Source: an uncultured Spirochaetales bacterium (GTDB lineage Bacteria > Spirochaetota > Spirochaetia > Sphaerochaetales > Sphaerochaetaceae). From it: DNA of 39,437 nucleotides. The notes under the pieces are model-generated. The model made no database searches. It saw nothing but the letters and a program-made list of their open reading frames with translations, and was not told the DNA's origin. Position numbers and translations under genes: made by a program. Position 1 is the first letter of the stretch, and every line of letters starts with the position of its first letter. Below are positions 28,215-35,230 of this stretch, piece by piece. The stretch covers positions 1 to 39,437 of the forward strand of contig CACYEI010000066.1 in NCBI GenBank assembly GCA_902773355.1, written 5' to 3'.

Positions 28215-29915
28215 TTATATTATTTTTGGCAGTAAATCTAAATTAAACTCAGCACACACGGTTGGCATGGTACATCCAAAATTTTCCAATACCTGTGGAT
28301 GAATCTCTCCAAAAACACCAACACATACACCATTTATCACCACTTTAGCACATCTTCCTATAATAAATCTTGTATCGTTATCAAGTTCATTCAGTTCATA
28401 TTTATAATTTAGCAAATACATTAAATTATTAACCATACTGTTAATATCATTAAAGCCCACCGCTCTATCAGATACCAAAATTCCAAGACTGTTGATAGTT
28501 TTAGTTCCACTGTTATCTAAATCATCTTTCAAGACTATTTTACCTGTTTCATAAATTCTGTGGGGATAAACAGCGCTTAATGAACTGGCTTCACTTTTAA
28601 GTAAAGATGGTAAAACAGATGGTCTAACAACTGCATAGTTTTCACTCATAGGATTAGCTATTAACACGGTTTTATCATCATTTGTATTCATATTATGAAC
28701 ATATTCTTTTAAACTACCTAGATAATTAAAAATCATTTCCTGAAAAGACATACCTATCATAATATCTTTTATCTTTCTATTAAGATTTTCTACATAGCTT
28801 AATCTGCCTACTGTAAAATCCTTTGGTATGACAGGCTCAAAACTATTCAAATCACAGCCTATCATTATATCTTCCACAACATCAACAGCATGAAGAAAAT
28901 CGTTTCTATAAGGTGGACAAGATATATTTATAATTCCTTTATTAATATCAGATTCCAAACCCATCTTCTTTAATGCAGTTTTAATTTGAGTTAAAGACAA
29001 TTTTTCTCCCAGTGTTTTATAGACCAAATCTACAGGACATGTAATATTATCCTGAAAATAATACGGAACTGTTATTTTCTTCCCAAACTCTGTTTCTTCA
29101 TCAAAAATTACTGTAACTGGATGAATTTTAAATCCCAGATCAGACATATCACATGCCATAATATTTGCACATAAAAGAATATCTTTTAAATTTGGGCCTG
29201 AAACTTCAAGAAACAAATTTTTATCACCAATTTCAACTTCTCCAACATTTGAACTGTTTATAACTGGAGGAAAACTTAAAGCTTGATTATTTGAATCAAA
29301 TAAAAAAGGAAAAAAAGGTTTATCTTTAACTATATATCCATACTCTCTTCCCTTTTCATGCTTTTCACAAATTTCCCTTAAAGTAAGATCTTCATCCATA
29401 TGAAGAGGTACAAAATGTGTTTTATCAGGATCTACGCCATCATAATGAACTGGAAAATTTATTAGCTTATTTTTATAAATTCCCATGGCTACAGTTCTTC
29501 TTTTCCTTCCAAAATTAAAACATAGCTTTTCCTGACTTTGAATTAGAGTTTTCAATATATCTTCATCTACTGTTTTCCCATCAGCTACAAAACCACAGCT
29601 ATAAGCACGTACGTTTTTAGCATTTTTTCCAATAACTATCTCCCTACCTTCATCATCTGCACTATGATTTTTATCTGAAAAAAAACTGTATTTCTTTATT
29701 CTTTGGCTAAAATAATTTTTTATTAATCTAGAAAGACCTACGGCACTCCACAAATCAGGACGGTTTGTGTCATTTAACTCAATTTTAATTGTACCATTCT
29801 CATGTCCGTCCAACTCAGCTTTAGCATAAGGAAAAATATTTTCAAGTTCAGAATCAGTGAATTCTTTACCAAGAAGTTTAAAAAAAAGTTTCTCTGATGT
29901 TTCAATTTTTGGCAT
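28215..29915 (-). CDS. pheT: Phenylalanyl-tRNA synthetase beta subunit, archaeal/eukaryotic type
   Basis: PheT helps PheS charge tRNA-Phe and edits mischarged Tyr-tRNA. At 566 residues it is much shorter than the bacterial ~800-residue form and lacks the N-terminal EMAP-like tRNA-binding domain and C-terminal anticodon domain. Its beginning MPKIETSEKLFFKLLGKEFTD, followed by ELNDTNRPDLWSAVGLSRLI, is the archaeal layout. B3/B4 editing and B5 domains follow (PPYRNDFLHAVDVVEDIMIG; HRIYETGKIV). Spirochaetes are known to have this type, probably by ancient transfer. It overlaps pheS by 14 bases. Confidence 0.94.
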   Translation of the reverse strand: MPKIETSEKLFFKLLGKEFTDSELENIFPYAKAELDGHENGTIKIELNDTNRPDLWSAVGLSRLIKNYFSQRIKKYSFFSDKNHSADDEGREIVIGKNAKNVRAYSCGFVADGKTVDEDILKTLIQSQEKLCFNFGRKRRTVAMGIYKNKLINFPVHYDGVDPDKTHFVPLHMDEDLTLREICEKHEKGREYGYIVKDKPFFPFLFDSNNQALSFPPVINSSNVGEVEIGDKNLFLEVSGPNLKDILLCANIMACDMSDLGFKIHPVTVIFDEETEFGKKITVPYYFQDNITCPVDLVYKTLGEKLSLTQIKTALKKMGLESDINKGIINISCPPYRNDFLHAVDVVEDIMIGCDLNSFEPVIPKDFTVGRLSYVENLNRKIKDIMIGMSFQEMIFNYLGSLKEYVHNMNTNDDKTVLIANPMSENYAVVRPSVLPSLLKSEASSLSAVYPHRIYETGKIVLKDDLDNSGTKTINSLGILVSDRAVGFNDINSMVNNLMYLLNYKYELNELDNDTRFIIGRCAKVVINGVCVGVFGEIHPQVLENFGCTMPTVCAEFNLDLLPKII

Positions 29916-31452
29916 TATTTCCTCTCCTTGTTCTTACACTTTCAATATCATTAGTAAACAATTCTCTTAAATCATTTAATCCCAAATGCATAAGAGCCAT
30001 TCTATCTATCCCTAACCCCCATGCTAAAACTGGATCTTCTATGCCTAGTGGTTTGGTTACTTCCGGTCTGAAAATACCAGAACCGCCTAATTCAAACCAT
30101 CCAAGTTTTGGATGCTTTATATGAACTTCTATAGATGGTTCTGTAAAAGGGAAATATCCAGGGACATATTTTACTTCTTCTGCTCCAGCTATTTCCTCTG
30201 CAAACATTTTTAGTAAACCTAACAGGTTTTTTAAATTGACATCTTTACCTATTACTATTCCTTCTGTCTGATAAAAATCAGCCCCATGGACAGCATCTAC
30301 CTGATCATATCTAAAACATCTTACAACACCAAAATATTTTCCAGGAGATTTGGCGTTTGTCAGCTTGTGAGCAGACAAAACAGTTCCCTGACTTCTTAAA
30401 ACCTGTCTTTTAGTAAATTCATGATCAAAACTATAATTCCAACCTCTAGAACCAGTTTCTCCACCGTTTTCATGTGTTCTAGCTACATTGGAAAGATATG
30501 GTTCTTCTATTTCCTTACAATGTGAAGGTTCCTTTACATAGTAAACATCATGAATATCTCTAGCACTATGAAACTGAGGCATGAATAAAGCATCACCATT
30601 CCAAAATTCATTTTCTACTAATGGACCATCAAATTCTTCAAAACCAAGAGAGACCAATTTATCCTTAACCCATCTAATATAATCAGCATAAGGATTTGGT
30701 CTTCCAGTTATAAGTCTGGAAACAGGTGCATTTAATCCATAAGCTCTGAATGAGGCATTTTTCCATTTACCTGATGATAGTAACTCAGGTGTAAGTACGC
30801 CTATTTCTTCTCCAGTAATATTCTGCCTGATTATTTCTTCCTTTGCTTTAAATCCAAGTTCAGTCAGTCTGTAAGTAATAATTTCTCTTTCTATCACTTT
30901 AAATGGAGAATTTCCAGCTGATCTTTTTTTTGCAATACTTTTTATTAAATCCTTTTCTTTCTGATCTAAATCTTCATCATCAATAATAGATTTTTCCTTA
31001 GCTCTAACCAGCAATTTCTGTAGATTTAATATTTCTTCAGGCAAATTTTGATTAACAATATAAGCCTTATGGTCTGAAGTCATACTGATAATTTTATACT
31101 TAGCAAGTGTTCCATAAGCAGAACCTACATCACTATTATCTAAATTAAGAATATCACTTATTTCAGGAAGAGAAAGATTATTCTTTTCATTCAATAGATT
31201 AAAAAGCCTCAAAACAGGCATTCCATATTCTGCCTGAAACAATCCACTCTCTGTTAATTCATAACTGATTTTTATAATTCTTGAAATCTCAGTAATAAAA
31301 TTTTTAGCAGAAAGCCAGCTAAAAGTCTGATTACACTGACCAATATTATAATTTAATTCTTTAATCAAATCAGATGAATTTATGTCTTTATTCATCTGTG
31401 CATATCTAAGCAATTTTATTTCTAAAGGATGAAGATTTTTTACTTCAATCAT
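29902..31452 (-). CDS. pheS: Phenylalanyl-tRNA synthetase alpha subunit, archaeal/eukaryotic type
   Basis: PheS carries the class II catalytic domain. This copy is 516 residues, longer than the bacterial ~340, because the N-terminal ~200 residues are tandem winged-helix DNA/tRNA-binding domains (LHPLEIKLLRYAQMNKDINSSDL and onward) as in archaea and eukaryotes instead of a coiled coil. The catalytic core has motif 1 near GPLVENEFWNGDALFMPQFHSARDIHDVYY, motif 2 VFRVVRCFRYDQVDAVHGADFYQTEG-like, and motif 3 GLGIDRMALMHLGLNDLRELF. It begins 48 bases after the nth gene. No T-box or leader attenuator fits in that gap. Confidence 0.95.
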   Translation of the reverse strand: MIEVKNLHPLEIKLLRYAQMNKDINSSDLIKELNYNIGQCNQTFSWLSAKNFITEISRIIKISYELTESGLFQAEYGMPVLRLFNLLNEKNNLSLPEISDILNLDNSDVGSAYGTLAKYKIISMTSDHKAYIVNQNLPEEILNLQKLLVRAKEKSIIDDEDLDQKEKDLIKSIAKKRSAGNSPFKVIEREIITYRLTELGFKAKEEIIRQNITGEEIGVLTPELLSSGKWKNASFRAYGLNAPVSRLITGRPNPYADYIRWVKDKLVSLGFEEFDGPLVENEFWNGDALFMPQFHSARDIHDVYYVKEPSHCKEIEEPYLSNVARTHENGGETGSRGWNYSFDHEFTKRQVLRSQGTVLSAHKLTNAKSPGKYFGVVRCFRYDQVDAVHGADFYQTEGIVIGKDVNLKNLLGLLKMFAEEIAGAEEVKYVPGYFPFTEPSIEVHIKHPKLGWFELGGSGIFRPEVTKPLGIEDPVLAWGLGIDRMALMHLGLNDLRELFTNDIESVRTRRGNNAKN

Positions 31453-31500: not shown

Positions 31501-32175
31501 TTATCTGGAATGTTTAACCCCTATTTTAGAACATGTCATATTTTCTGGACAGATAGAACACTTAGGAGAAACTGTAGTACAAATATTCTGTCCGTAGCTG
31601 ACCAAAAGTTCATTAAGAGAAATCCAGTATTTTTTAGGCAATATCTTCATTAATGCTTTTTCACTTTCTTCTGGAGTCCTTGTCCTTATCCATCCAAGCC
31701 TGTTGCTAATAACATGTACATGACAATCAACACATATGGCAGGGATATCAAAACCTAAATTTAAAGTTAAGTTTGCTGTTTTTATTCCTACACCAGGTAA
31801 AGATAATAGACTTTTAGAATCAGAAGGGACATGACCATTAAAATCATCTATCAGTATTCTTGAGATTTCCCTTATTCTTTTAGCTTTGGTTTTATAAAAA
31901 CCTACAGGGAAAATTATATCTGCTATTTCCTGTTCAGAGTGTAAAAGCATGTCTTTAGGATTATCCGCCATTTGAAATAATCTTTCAGAAGCATCTAAAG
32001 TTACATTATCTTTGGTTCTTAATGAAAGAATTGTAGAAATTAAGACACAGAAAGGATCTTTTTTATCTATAGCTTCAAAACTTACAGCAGGCAAAACTGC
32101 ACCTATATCTTTAAGAATCTTTGAAAATTCTTCAAAGATATTATCAAAATAACTTTCCTTCAGTTCTAAATTCAT
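31501..32175 (-). CDS. nth: Endonuclease III (DNA glycosylase/AP lyase)
   Basis: Nth removes oxidised pyrimidines and cuts the resulting AP site. The helix-hairpin-helix LLSLPGVGIKTANLTLNLGF includes the catalytic-lysine position (here GIKTAN) and CVDCHVHVISNRLG includes the catalytic Asp region. A C-terminal [4Fe-4S] motif has spacing C-x6-C-x2-C-x5-C (CTTVSPKCSICPENMTC). At 224 residues it is typical. It overlaps the upstream membrane protein gene by 32 bases and has no ribosome binding site of its own, so it depends on coupling. DNA-repair genes occur again at 35-36.6 kb. Confidence 0.94.
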   Translation of the reverse strand: MNLELKESYFDNIFEEFSKILKDIGAVLPAVSFEAIDKKDPFCVLISTILSLRTKDNVTLDASERLFQMADNPKDMLLHSEQEIADIIFPVGFYKTKAKRIREISRILIDDFNGHVPSDSKSLLSLPGVGIKTANLTLNLGFDIPAICVDCHVHVISNRLGWIRTRTPEESEKALMKILPKKYWISLNELLVSYGQNICTTVSPKCSICPENMTCSKIGVKHSR

Positions 32176-32830
32176 AAAACAAATAACCAGTCATTCCATC
32201 TAAAAATTCAGATTTATTAAAATTCAATACAGGAGATAATGATCTTACTAAGTTAGGACAGATTACACCCAAGCGCTTTTCCTTACTAACTACGTTTCTT
32301 AGCCTATAATCAAGTATGAACTTATCATCAACATCTGCATAATCCAAATCAGATAAATCATGGACTTCAATATATTTGGATGTTACAATTGCTTCAGCCC
32401 ATCCTGAATCTATATCAGAAACAAGAACAGCATCAAAAAATAATTTATCATTAGAAATACCCACTCCAACAGTAATGGTATCTGGCAGAAGTGTTTTAAC
32501 ATTTATCTCATAGTCTTCAATATATGAAGTTACTACCGGGCTAAAAAAAACCATGGCAGATTTATTTTCAGCTGTTATCTCTGTTTCCAAAACATATGGA
32601 CTAAACAAAGCGTTCTCATTCAGTGTTTTTACCCATATCAACTTTCCGTTTTTTAGTAAATCTAATCCAAAATCAAAATACTCCATGAAAGGCATGTTTA
32701 CGCTAAAACTTTGATCTTGAATAATTACTACTCTGTCAAATGTAAAATAAACTACTGCACCAAAAACTAGTAAAGCTGCAAGCAAAACAATAAAAAAAAT
32801 TCTAAAAAACTTTTTCTTTCTTCTAGCCAT
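32144..32830 (-). CDS. Membrane-anchored protein of unknown function
   Basis: A basic start (MARRKKKFFR) is followed by one membrane segment (IFFIVLLAALLVFGAVVYF, about residues 10-28). The remaining ~200 residues would lie outside and are rich in Asp, Val and Phe with many short beta strands, including SAMVFFSPVVTSYIEDYEINVKTLLPDTITVGVG. No family is recognised. It starts three bases after the STAS-kinase gene and overlaps nth by 32 bases, so it is translated from the same messenger as the signalling genes upstream. It may be the envelope sensor or target of that cassette, which is inference from context only. Confidence 0.7.
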   Translation of the reverse strand: MARRKKKFFRIFFIVLLAALLVFGAVVYFTFDRVVIIQDQSFSVNMPFMEYFDFGLDLLKNGKLIWVKTLNENALFSPYVLETEITAENKSAMVFFSPVVTSYIEDYEINVKTLLPDTITVGVGISNDKLFFDAVLVSDIDSGWAEAIVTSKYIEVHDLSDLDYADVDDKFILDYRLRNVVSKEKRLGVICPNLVRSLSPVLNFNKSEFLDGMTGYLFYEFRTEGKLF

Positions 32831-32833
32831 AAT

Positions 32834-33961
32834 CTAAATCTTTTCTAATATATCTTCTATCCTTTTTATTATATTATTTATTTTTGTTTTTGTAAGTTCA
32901 TCTTCTGAATACCTACTATAACTGTAAATCATTAATAATCTAATATAACCTAATAATGCAAACTGATTTTCATATTTATTGTATTCATCCAAACCAAAAT
33001 AACTTTTTAAAACAGAAAGATAAAAATCACGAGCAAACTCCACAGTGAAACCAAAAAATTTAAGTGTTTCATTTGGGTCAATTTCCGCAAAACCTATATA
33101 GGATATAAATATGCCACAGAACTCAAAAGCAATATTTCCATAGCTAAGTGTATCCATATCAATCAAAAGTAATTCTTCATTTTGAACTAAAATGTTATTT
33201 GTATGGAAATCTCCATGTAATAAAACTTTATCTTCAGTAATAGAACTGACATATTTTTCAATCCTATTATATAATTCATCATCTAATGTTTTCCTGCATC
33301 TTGTTAATTTAGTAAGAAAGACATCTTTTGCACTTGGTAAATTAATACCTTCCATTTTAGTATTATGCACTGCTTTTAATAAATCTGTATATTCACGTAC
33401 ATATTTTGAAAATTCATCTTTATTTTTTAACATTAATCTTGATAAAGATGTTGCATTTAAAAATTCAAAAACTGTACCAAATGTATTTCCTATTTTTACA
33501 ATATCAAAAGAAATTGCTGTGGGAATTCCATGAGAAAATGCTGTTTTAGCCAGATACCGTTCTTTTTTAATATCATCCATTACCGGTTTTTTATAAACTT
33601 TAACAATTGTTTCTGAATCTAGGATATATACTGTACCATTAGCCCCTTCCCCTAATTTTTCACAACCACTTACATCAATTTCTCTATAAGCCTTTTCAAC
33701 TGATAATAAATCAACAAATCCTGTAACTTCAAAAATATCATAAACTGAAGGTTGAACATTTATAACATTTATCTCCTTCACTTTTTTTCTGAAATATAAA
33801 AAAACCCTTAAGCCTGCACTGGAAATATAATTCAAATCCCTAAGATCAAAAATTAAAACTTCCTTTGACAAATCATCTGATTTTTTTAACTTTTCATCAA
33901 TTTCTTCTTGCACGAACTTAGCATTGTTTGAATCAAGTCTGTTTTCTAATTTAAATTCCAT
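32834..33961 (-). CDS. STAS domain fused to aminoglycoside-phosphotransferase-fold kinase
   Basis: Two domains are joined in 375 residues. Residues 1-95 are a STAS anti-sigma-factor-antagonist domain with LIFDLRDLNYISSAGLR; Ser48 corresponds to the serine phosphorylated by anti-sigma kinases in SpoIIAA-like proteins. Residues ~98-330 are a kinase-like fold: glycine-rich loop LGEGANGTVY (103-112), Lys121 in IVKVYKK, the catalytic loop HGDFHTNN (249-256), and DMD at 268-270 in the place of the DFG metal motif. All expected catalytic residues are present, so it should be an active phosphotransferase; the substrate is unknown. The C-terminal part resembles the paralogous kinase-like families of gut bacteria such as Fibrobacter. 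It lies four bases after the ATPase gene. Confidence 0.85.
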   Translation of the reverse strand: MEFKLENRLDSNNAKFVQEEIDEKLKKSDDLSKEVLIFDLRDLNYISSAGLRVFLYFRKKVKEINVINVQPSVYDIFEVTGFVDLLSVEKAYREIDVSGCEKLGEGANGTVYILDSETIVKVYKKPVMDDIKKERYLAKTAFSHGIPTAISFDIVKIGNTFGTVFEFLNATSLSRLMLKNKDEFSKYVREYTDLLKAVHNTKMEGINLPSAKDVFLTKLTRCRKTLDDELYNRIEKYVSSITEDKVLLHGDFHTNNILVQNEELLLIDMDTLSYGNIAFEFCGIFISYIGFAEIDPNETLKFFGFTVEFARDFYLSVLKSYFGLDEYNKYENQFALLGYIRLLMIYSYSRYSEDELTKTKINNIIKRIEDILEKI

Positions 33962-33965
33962 ATAC

Positions 33966-34391
33966 TTAGACCAATTTTTTCCTAATAACCAAAATATTTT
34001 TATTATCTACATACTGATAACTTACATTATCCATATATTTCTTTACCAAAAACATACCTAAGCCTCCTATTTGTCTTTCTTCAGCAGAAAGGTTTAAATC
34101 TGGTTCAGGAACATTTAACGGATTAAATTTTTTTCCATTATCTCCAAATGAAATAATAATTTCTGGCGTACTTTCTACCAAATTTACAGTAATTTCAACA
34201 TTGCCTATTTCAGGTGCATATGCATAACTTGAAATATTAGTAAATATTTCTTCTGCAGCTAATTCAAGTTCTGTTACAGTTTTCAAACTATATTTATCTT
34301 TATCAAGCTGTTCATTTATAAAATCTATAACTTTAGGCAAATTATCAATTACAGCTGAAACAGATATAATCTTTTTATTATCTTTTGACAT
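33966..34391 (-). CDS. Anti-sigma-factor-type ATPase (RsbW/SpoIIAB-like HATPase)
   Basis: This 141-residue GHKL ATPase resembles the serine kinases that phosphorylate STAS antagonists. The N-box is ELELAAEEIFTNISSYAY (about residues 42-59), G1 is DNGKKFNP, and G2 is GGLGMFLVKKYMD. A helix-rich N-terminus (IDFINEQL) precedes the N-box. The ribosome binding site is AGGTGA at five bases. It is placed between the cytidylate-kinase-like gene and the STAS-kinase fusion, so its substrate is most simply Ser48 of that STAS domain. No sigma factor gene is in the window, so what it controls is open. Confidence 0.88.
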   Translation of the reverse strand: MSKDNKKIISVSAVIDNLPKVIDFINEQLDKDKYSLKTVTELELAAEEIFTNISSYAYAPEIGNVEITVNLVESTPEIIISFGDNGKKFNPLNVPEPDLNLSAEERQIGGLGMFLVKKYMDNVSYQYVDNKNILVIRKKLV

Positions 34392-34414
34392 TTAATCACC
34401 TACATATCATATCC

Positions 34415-35059
34415 TTAAAGTATATTATCTGGCATTATATTACCTTTACCATAATCATCCAGATATTGTGAAATTAAATTAACAGCTCCATCTACACCTA
34501 TATATGAAGTATCTATACATAAATGATAATGATTACATTCACCCCATTTTTCATGTGAATAATATTCATAAAACTTACTTCTTTTTTTATCTCTATCTTC
34601 TATATGTTTTTTCATCTCTTTTTCAGTAAAGTCTGGGTGTTTTCCTATTTCAAACTTTCTTTTAATTCTTTCTTCTATCTTGGCACAAATAAATATATTG
34701 ATTGGATTTAAATCCCGTAAAACATAATCAGAACATCTTCCTATAAAAACACATGAACCTTTTTCTGCAAGTTCATGCATTTTTTTCCCTACGGCTAAAA
34801 AAACATCATCCTTACTGAAATAATAATTATGTAAATTCATATCAGGTCCGCTATAAAAACCTGAAACTGACATGGAAATAAAATCAGGTCTTTTTTCATC
34901 CATCTTATTTAAAAATGATTCATCAAAATTAGAATCTTCTGCTGTTAATGTTAAAAGCTCTTTATCATAAAATGGAATTCCATATTTGGCAGAAAGTCTT
35001 CTGCCAACCTCGTGTCCACCACTGCCAAACTGACGCCCAATAGTTATAACATGATTCAT
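34415..35059 (-). CDS. Cytidylate-kinase-like P-loop protein
   Basis: The protein (214 residues) begins VITIGRQFGSGGHEVGRRLSAKYGIPFYDKELL, the marks of the Cytidylate_kin2 group, where GRQFGSGG is the nucleotide loop. FIGRCSDYVL and FICAKIEERIKRKF with REDRDKKRSKFYEYY-like Arg-rich lid follow. These are widespread, uncharacterised relatives of CMP kinase; true Cmk would have different substrate-binding residues. AAGGAG six bases upstream lies in the last codons of the small YolD-like gene. It is the first gene of the four-gene signalling cassette. Confidence 0.85.
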   Translation of the reverse strand: MNHVITIGRQFGSGGHEVGRRLSAKYGIPFYDKELLTLTAEDSNFDESFLNKMDEKRPDFISMSVSGFYSGPDMNLHNYYFSKDDVFLAVGKKMHELAEKGSCVFIGRCSDYVLRDLNPINIFICAKIEERIKRKFEIGKHPDFTEKEMKKHIEDRDKKRSKFYEYYSHEKWGECNHYHLCIDTSYIGVDGAVNLISQYLDDYGKGNIMPDNIL

Positions 35060-35062
35060 ATC

Positions 35063-35230
35063 TTACTCCTTGAAAAAATCATTATTTACATTGTTTATAA
35101 TATCATTAAAACCAACTAAAGCAGAAAATGGAGCAAATATTTTAGCTCTTAATGAAAGTGGCATCTTTTCTCTGTTCTCTTCCCCTGTCCAGTTATAATC
35201 AATGATATCACTATAATCCCTGGGAATCAT
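35063..35230 (-). CDS. YolD-like small protein, partner of the Y-family polymerase
   Basis: A 55-codon frame starts with an ATG overlapping the polymerase TGA (ATGA at 35227-35230) and ends with TAA three bases before the cytidylate-kinase-like gene. The protein begins IPRDYSDIIDYNW and has MPLSLRAKIFAPFSALVGFNDII at residues 33-45. The pattern (R-A-x-x-F-A-P-F-A-A-L-x-G-[FY]-x-x-x-I) matches the small YolD-like proteins that accompany this polymerase type in Firmicutes, and this one is shortened at the C-terminus. The relation rests on my memory of those sequences. The gene is short enough to be missed by automatic callers. Confidence 0.75.
   Translation of the reverse strand: MIPRDYSDIIDYNWTGEENREKMPLSLRAKIFAPFSALVGFNDIINNVNNDFFKE

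Follow-up and report, generated by a model that had tools for sequence, protein, structure and literature searches.

Partner switching is the textbook route to the release of a sigma factor: an unphosphorylated STAS protein binds an ATPase, the phosphorylated STAS protein is freed from it, and a SpoIIE-type phosphatase resets the system. In regulators of the Rv1364c type, a sensor, a PP2C phosphatase, an RsbW-like kinase and a STAS domain are united in a single chain. Partner-switch control of an enzyme is also already known, as the SiaA/SiaB/SiaC-SiaD, HsbA-HsbD and BgrV-BgrR systems control the diguanylate cyclases SiaD, HsbD and BgrR (PMC8457831). Here we describe a locus of an uncultured gut Spirochaetales bacterium (Sphaerochaetaceae; assembly GCA_902773355.1), located in a stretch of 39,437 nucleotides of contig CACYEI010000066.1, which is referred to as the window. 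Two linked genes of the window encode an RsbW-like ATPase and a fusion of a STAS domain to an APH-fold kinase (STAS-APH). They probably belong to a partner-switching module with an enzyme, a small-molecule kinase, as its output, opposed by a dedicated phosphohydrolase.

The fusion is a single uninterrupted reading frame of 375 amino acids (aa) in which the STAS domain is followed by the APH phosphotransferase domain. A first-pass annotation, made from the sequence alone, had proposed one polypeptide with an N-terminal STAS domain and a complete APH-fold kinase, and a Pfam search of the fusion found both (STAS at aa 3-90, E 3.9e-13; APH at aa 101-285, E 1.3e-12). According to sequence profiles, the closest solved structures to the STAS part are SpoIIAA/RsbV-type antagonists, e.g. 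1th8_B (E 1.1e-11), and alignment by eye places Ser48 of the fusion at Ser58 of SpoIIAA. Against the anti-sigma factor antagonist model TIGR00377 the fusion reached 47.6 bits (cutoff 53.45) and a relative at locus L021 reached 61.6 bits. The score of the APH domain was 48.5 bits vs a Pfam cutoff of 23.2, and the HGD...N and DxD motifs and the beta3 lysine are all present.

Relatives of the fusion are encoded at 589 or more loci in a prokaryote genome collection, of which 80 were kept; in the following, residue counts refer to 88 aligned sequences, and neighbour counts to 85 non-redundant loci. S48, K121, E134, H249, D251, N256, D268 and the glycines of the glycine-rich loop are identical in all aligned sequences, and D270, the second aspartate of the DMD motif, is kept in 86. 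Because of this (near-)invariance, both the predicted phosphosite and what looks like a working kinase centre are conserved. The positions originally assigned to Ser48, HGD (249-251) and DMD (268-270) were correct.

An AlphaFold2 model of the fusion, built on 50 relatives, was confident (mean pLDDT 92.6). Its top Foldseek match was APH(2'')-IIa (3hav, E 6.6e-11), with a probability of 1.00 to APH structures, and the best profile and structure matches of the kinase domain are the small-molecule kinases APH(2''), APH(4), choline kinase and maltokinase. The APH fold, with aminoglycoside kinases as the closest solved structures, could point to an antibiotic-resistance enzyme under stress control. 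We consider this exceedingly unlikely, since the identity to solved aminoglycoside kinases is only about 14-20%, the scores are far below the APH equivalog cutoffs (17-18 bits with the APH(6) and APH(3') models vs cutoffs of 325 and 205), no plasmid match was found, and the recurrent company of the gene consists of signalling and nucleotide-hydrolase genes. Weak profile matches to protein-kinase-like models, RIO1 and Bud32 among them, raise another possibility, namely that we are dealing with a protein kinase, or with a domain acting on its ATPase or STAS partners. This is improbable in view of the top profile and structure matches, which are small-molecule kinases, and of the repeated pairing or fusion of the domain with nucleotide-type phosphohydrolases.

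The gene upstream of STAS-APH, separated from it by 4 bases, encodes a protein of 141 aa, whose assignment as an RsbW/SpoIIAB-like ATPase is backed by its HATPase_c_2 match (68 bits vs a cutoff of 27.4, E 8.6e-19). Its N-box residues E48 and N52 are conserved, as is the GGLG box, and the Bergerat ATP-binding motifs are complete. With the RsbW equivalog models NF003144 and TIGR01924 it stays below the cutoffs (38.6 vs 145 bits and 34.5 vs 155 bits, respectively). In a whole-genome search it was the sole HATPase_c_2 protein above the curated cutoff in its genome.

The combination of the two proteins recurs. The kept loci originate mainly from rumen and gut Clostridia, with some from spirochaetes, and the single record not titled as a metagenome assembly is Butyrivibrio sp. 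AC2005 (L095), a cultured carrier that encodes the ATPase and SpoIIE in addition to STAS-APH. Among spirochaetes, the whole STAS-APH architecture is present in 7 of 61 sampled genomes, and a strong match was found in only 8 of 296 genomes of the wider phylum. HATPase_c_2 in any form lies within 6 kb at 61 of the 85 loci; it is fused to the C-terminus of STAS-APH in 32 cases, separate in 14 and inside a SpoIIE protein in 17, these categories overlapping. As a rough yardstick, the one HATPase_c_2 gene in the 1.18 Mb genome of the window would be expected to lie no more than 6 kb from a randomly chosen point with a chance of about 1%. A SpoIIE-type phosphatase is encoded nearby at 36 loci and a lone STAS protein at 44. 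The partner genes nearly always lie on the same strand (135 of 137 scored). The parts are also joined to each other in the fusions STAS-APH-ATPase, SpoIIE-ATPase, SpoIIE-HD (L127, L128) and HD-APH (L130). The RsbW-like ATPase and STAS-APH form the conserved unit.

In the window, this unit is flanked by two further genes. Unit and flanking genes together correspond to four open reading frames (ORFs) on the minus strand at 32144-35059, with gaps of 23, 4 and 3 bases as first described (Table 1). The 214-aa ORF encodes a Cytidylate_kin2-type protein, in agreement with the initial assignment (Pfam E 2.1e-47), and the 228-aa ORF a membrane protein with a hydrophobic stretch at its N-terminus, for which the Pfam search gave no family above cutoff. 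Tight spacing and a common strand had suggested a single signalling cassette, with the Cytidylate_kin2 protein taking part in the signalling pathway of this lineage. We regard this as very unlikely. Among these four genes, the comparison of neighbourhoods upheld the co-occurrence with the ATPase only: relatives of the Cytidylate_kin2 or the membrane-protein gene were found near STAS-APH at none of about 95 loci. At L134 and L135, a relative of the membrane-protein gene abuts nth, as it does in the window (31501-32830), while the stretch read contains no STAS-APH gene; the membrane-protein gene thus goes together with nth. In five relatives (L137-L141) the Cytidylate_kin2 orthologues adjoin unrelated genes, and in two of these five genomes (G006 and G011) no full-length STAS-APH was detected. 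Based on these arrangements, the ATPase and STAS-APH genes appear to be set between genes that do not accompany them in other genomes.

The edges of the proposed cassette are arbitrary, since the run of genes on the same strand continues on both sides, upstream with a 56-codon ORF and the gene of a Y-family polymerase, and downstream with nth (32-base overlap) and pheS. Promoter-like matches were not commoner than in shuffled sequence, and terminator-like matches numbered 3 vs 1.5 in shuffles; both are therefore uninformative on operon limits. The GC content is 0.26-0.28 across the module vs about 0.30 in its surroundings, which is not a convincing signal of transfer. Further downstream, the PheT/PheS pair resembles the archaeal-type form, which is typical of spirochaetes.

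Table 1. Coordinates of the module and of neighbouring features in the window.
Feature	Position	Strand	Basis or remark
STAS-APH fusion, 375 aa, core of the module	32834..33961	-	Pfam, AlphaFold2, related loci
STAS domain, aa 1-92	33686..33961	-	Pfam; nearest solved relatives SpoIIAA/RsbV-type antagonists
Ser48 codon, predicted phosphosite	33818..33820	-	Ser in 88/88 aligned sequences
APH-fold kinase domain, about aa 95-347	32921..33679	-	Pfam, NCBIfam, Foldseek
HGD catalytic motif, aa 249-251	33209..33217	-	H249 and D251 invariant in 88
DMD metal-binding motif, aa 268-270	33152..33160	-	D268 88/88, D270 86/88
RsbW/SpoIIAB-like HATPase_c_2 ATPase/kinase, 141 aa	33966..34391	-	Pfam E 8.6e-19
56-codon ORF	35063-35230	-	4-base overlap with the end of the Y-family polymerase gene
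PheT/PheS pair	28215-31452	-	516-aa PheS with N-terminal extension, 566-aa PheT

The genome of the window (G000; 97.8% complete, 1.18 Mb) contains all parts of a partner switch: the RsbW-like kinase, STAS with the serine loop, and a SpoIIE-type phosphatase. The single SpoIIE protein, with a hydrophobic segment at its N-terminus, is encoded on contig C32. There is a single lone STAS protein, which has the same ISSAGLR loop as the fusion; its gene, on contig C91, follows a PHP phosphoesterase gene of the same strand at a distance of 10 bases. Four sigma factors were found, namely RpoD, a 292-aa RpoS/RpoD-like protein and two extracytoplasmic function sigma factors, one of which has its own apparent membrane anti-sigma gene. 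No SigB/F/G-type sigma factor was above cutoff in this genome; the best score, that of the RpoS/RpoD-like protein, was 119.5 bits vs 234.35 for TIGR02980.

This bears on the possibility of a conventional switch, in which STAS-APH would be the antagonist, the ATPase would sequester a sigma factor (the 292-aa protein or RpoD), and the APH domain would sense a metabolite or tune the antagonist. The likeness of the ATPase to RsbW/SpoIIAB (38.6 bits with the RsbW model) and the presence of a second RpoD-family sigma factor speak for such a switch, and RsbW of Chlamydia can control the housekeeping sigma factor (PMC8256260). Nevertheless we regard it as unlikely, although the strongest competitor: besides the result for SigB/F/G-type factors, the recurrent neighbours of the 88 loci include no recognised sigma-factor family (some neighbour families could not be assigned), a separate lone STAS protein already provides an antagonist, and the catalytic residues of the kinase are conserved. 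An enzymatic output remains the reading that we prefer, and the simplest output is the kinase itself, because the STAS domain is covalently joined to an intact kinase.

The candidate for the opposing enzyme emerged from the neighbourhoods. An HD_4 hydrolase similar to SpoT and MESH1 is encoded at 24 of the 85 loci and a PHP phosphoesterase at 19, mostly at distances within tens of bases. Members of the HD subfamily (>270 bits) occur in 4 of 61 spirochaete genomes (G007, G024, G025 and G046) and of the PHP subfamily (>300 bits) in 2 of 41 (G000, that of the window, and G008), and all of these carry STAS-APH; G025 was searched for the HD subfamily only. With HD in four and PHP in two, six of the seven STAS-APH carriers have a detected member of either subfamily. 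The seventh, G009, has a divergent, solitary STAS-APH copy. The hydrolase is tied to the kinase both by neighbourhood and at the genome level. The PHP protein of the window's genome is 53% identical to that encoded directly downstream of STAS-APH-ATPase in G008; the dedicated HD subfamily is absent from the window's genome, in which RelA/SpoT is the sole such protein. At L130 (4367-6440), a 491-aa protein consists of an HD hydrolase joined directly to an APH kinase and lacks STAS; the next gene encodes a 193-aa protein without a Pfam match.

In the HD partner, R20, H30, H54-D55, E58-D59, D122 and N126, i.e. the full SpoT/MESH1 residue set, are invariant in 17 sequences. Among solved structures, this partner is closest to Lmo0812, small alarmone hydrolases, Rel/SpoT and MESH1. 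The PHP partner is closest to the models of 3',5'-nucleoside bisphosphate phosphatase and RNase RNM, albeit below their cutoffs, and is also close to metal-dependent phosphoesterases. MESH1 enzymes strip phosphates off ppGpp, NADPH and CoA (PMC13221220). Therefore, the relationships of both partners suggest chemistry on 2'- or 3'-phosphorylated nucleotides. It is tempting to speculate, although we consider it rather doubtful at present, that the partner switch gates an APH-fold kinase making a nucleotide-type messenger or cofactor with a phosphate at the 2' or 3' position, which is cleared by the MESH1/SpoT-like HD or the pAp-phosphatase-like PHP hydrolase. If true, this would be a possible new nucleotide second-messenger pathway, and gut bacteria would widely share a signalling system not described before.

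Gene content, fusions, co-occurrence and conserved active sites are direct observations, from which we infer phosphorylation, the direction of control and the substrate. The RsbW-like ATPase would phosphorylate Ser48 in the STAS domain of STAS-APH, and the membrane SpoIIE-type phosphatase, encoded elsewhere in the genome, would take the phosphate off upon sensing a signal. Phosphorylation of Ser48 would govern binding or release of the ATPase and thereby turn the attached APH-fold kinase on or off. The kinase would phosphorylate a small molecule, and the dedicated phosphohydrolase may oppose it or work in the same pathway. Here this hydrolase would be the PHP phosphoesterase beside the lone STAS gene on another contig, and in other genomes the SpoT/MESH1-like HD hydrolase.

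The first-pass idea that the STAS switch gates the attached phosphotransferase, with an enzymatic output, fits the co-occurrence with ATPase and SpoIIE, the STAS-APH-ATPase fusions, the invariant phosphosite and kinase centre, and the result for SigB/F/G-type sigma factors; the Cytidylate_kin2 and membrane genes have no part in it, and phosphorylation and gating are still predicted steps. Several points weigh against the module as outlined here. At 3 of 56 well-flanked loci, second copies among them, no partner is encoded nearby. HD and PHP genes never occur together at the 85 loci (Fisher p 7e-4), but this exclusivity is not separable from phylogeny, a phylogeny-corrected test having had too few independent pairs. 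The circuit parts in the window's genome are spread over three contigs, so that we infer their linkage from other genomes. Finally, the control of the housekeeping sigma factor by Chlamydia RsbW means that a transcriptional output is possible without a SigB-like factor.

In a quick tree, the spirochaete STAS-APH sequences fall among those of Clostridia, and at least eight changes of phylum label are required, many branches being weak. This pattern fits repeated transfer between gut bacteria. The exact sister of the window sequence is unsure, because its branch is long and its amino-acid make-up unusual. Among viral contigs, one partial relative (L142) was found at a contig end. A plasmid-borne origin was rejected, as there was no plasmid match, and a role in anti-phage defence found no convincing PADLOC match (best E 0.0094 over 26 residues).

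Transporter genes were also noticed near circuit parts. Close to the SpoIIE genes at L116 (1826-3430, contig C32 of the window's genome) and L102 (1821-3440), sodium:dicarboxylate symporters are extended at the N-terminus by an additional domain of about 135 aa, which by eye looks like an ATPase-type regulatory domain and has no Pfam match. In one spirochaete (L123, 5462-9398) genes for STAS, a MATE-like transporter, SpoIIE and ATPase form a run, and in another (L129, 1690-3519) a MATE-ATPase fusion directly follows STAS-APH. The last two loci point to transporters as further possible targets of partner switching.

In the open-access papers searched, we found no description of STAS-APH, of STAS-APH-ATPase or of the HD/PHP partner, although absence from the literature is not thereby proven. 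Within the limits of this search, the papers agree with the earlier statement that known partner switches carry no attached small-molecule kinase. PMC2877116 speaks of APH tethered to Ser/Thr kinases but not of the STAS domain, the sole text match being part of an author name. A STAS switch domain on a metabolic-type kinase travels with a nucleotide-phosphate hydrolase across animal-gut Clostridia and spirochaetes, which suggests that a well-known circuit can switch an enzyme on or off in place of a transcription factor. Should STAS in fact gate the kinase, partner switching would give hundreds of gut species direct control over a metabolite, which may be a messenger, and the natural STAS-APH-ATPase fusions make the idea testable on one purified protein.

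Compared to known systems, the module shares with RsbU/RsbV/RsbW and SpoIIE/SpoIIAA/SpoIIAB of Bacillus subtilis the HATPase_c_2 serine kinase, the STAS domain with a conserved serine and the SpoIIE-type phosphatase. It differs from those switches in that an APH-fold kinase is attached to STAS, frequently within a single chain that also includes the ATPase, in that an HD or PHP hydrolase recurs as a partner, and in that the window's genome is without a SigB/F/G-type sigma factor above cutoff. The union of partner-switch parts in one polypeptide, as in the STAS-APH-ATPase forms, resembles the Rv1364c-type regulators, but the APH kinase replaces their sensor and phosphatase domains. TIGR02172, a paralogous APH-like family of Fibrobacter succinogenes, is the best NCBIfam match of the kinase domain (99.1 bits, below the cutoff of 228.2), and this model of 226 positions spans the kinase region only. 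The R, H, HD, ED, D, N set of small alarmone hydrolases and MESH1 is also found in the HD partner of other genomes; unlike those enzymes, this partner is a gene neighbour or fusion partner of a kinase predicted to be STAS-gated. In the SiaD, HsbD and BgrR systems, as is predicted here, a phosphorylation-controlled partner protein regulates an enzyme, theirs making a nucleotide messenger, whereas in the present module an APH-fold kinase takes the place of the GGDEF cyclase and is attached covalently to STAS.

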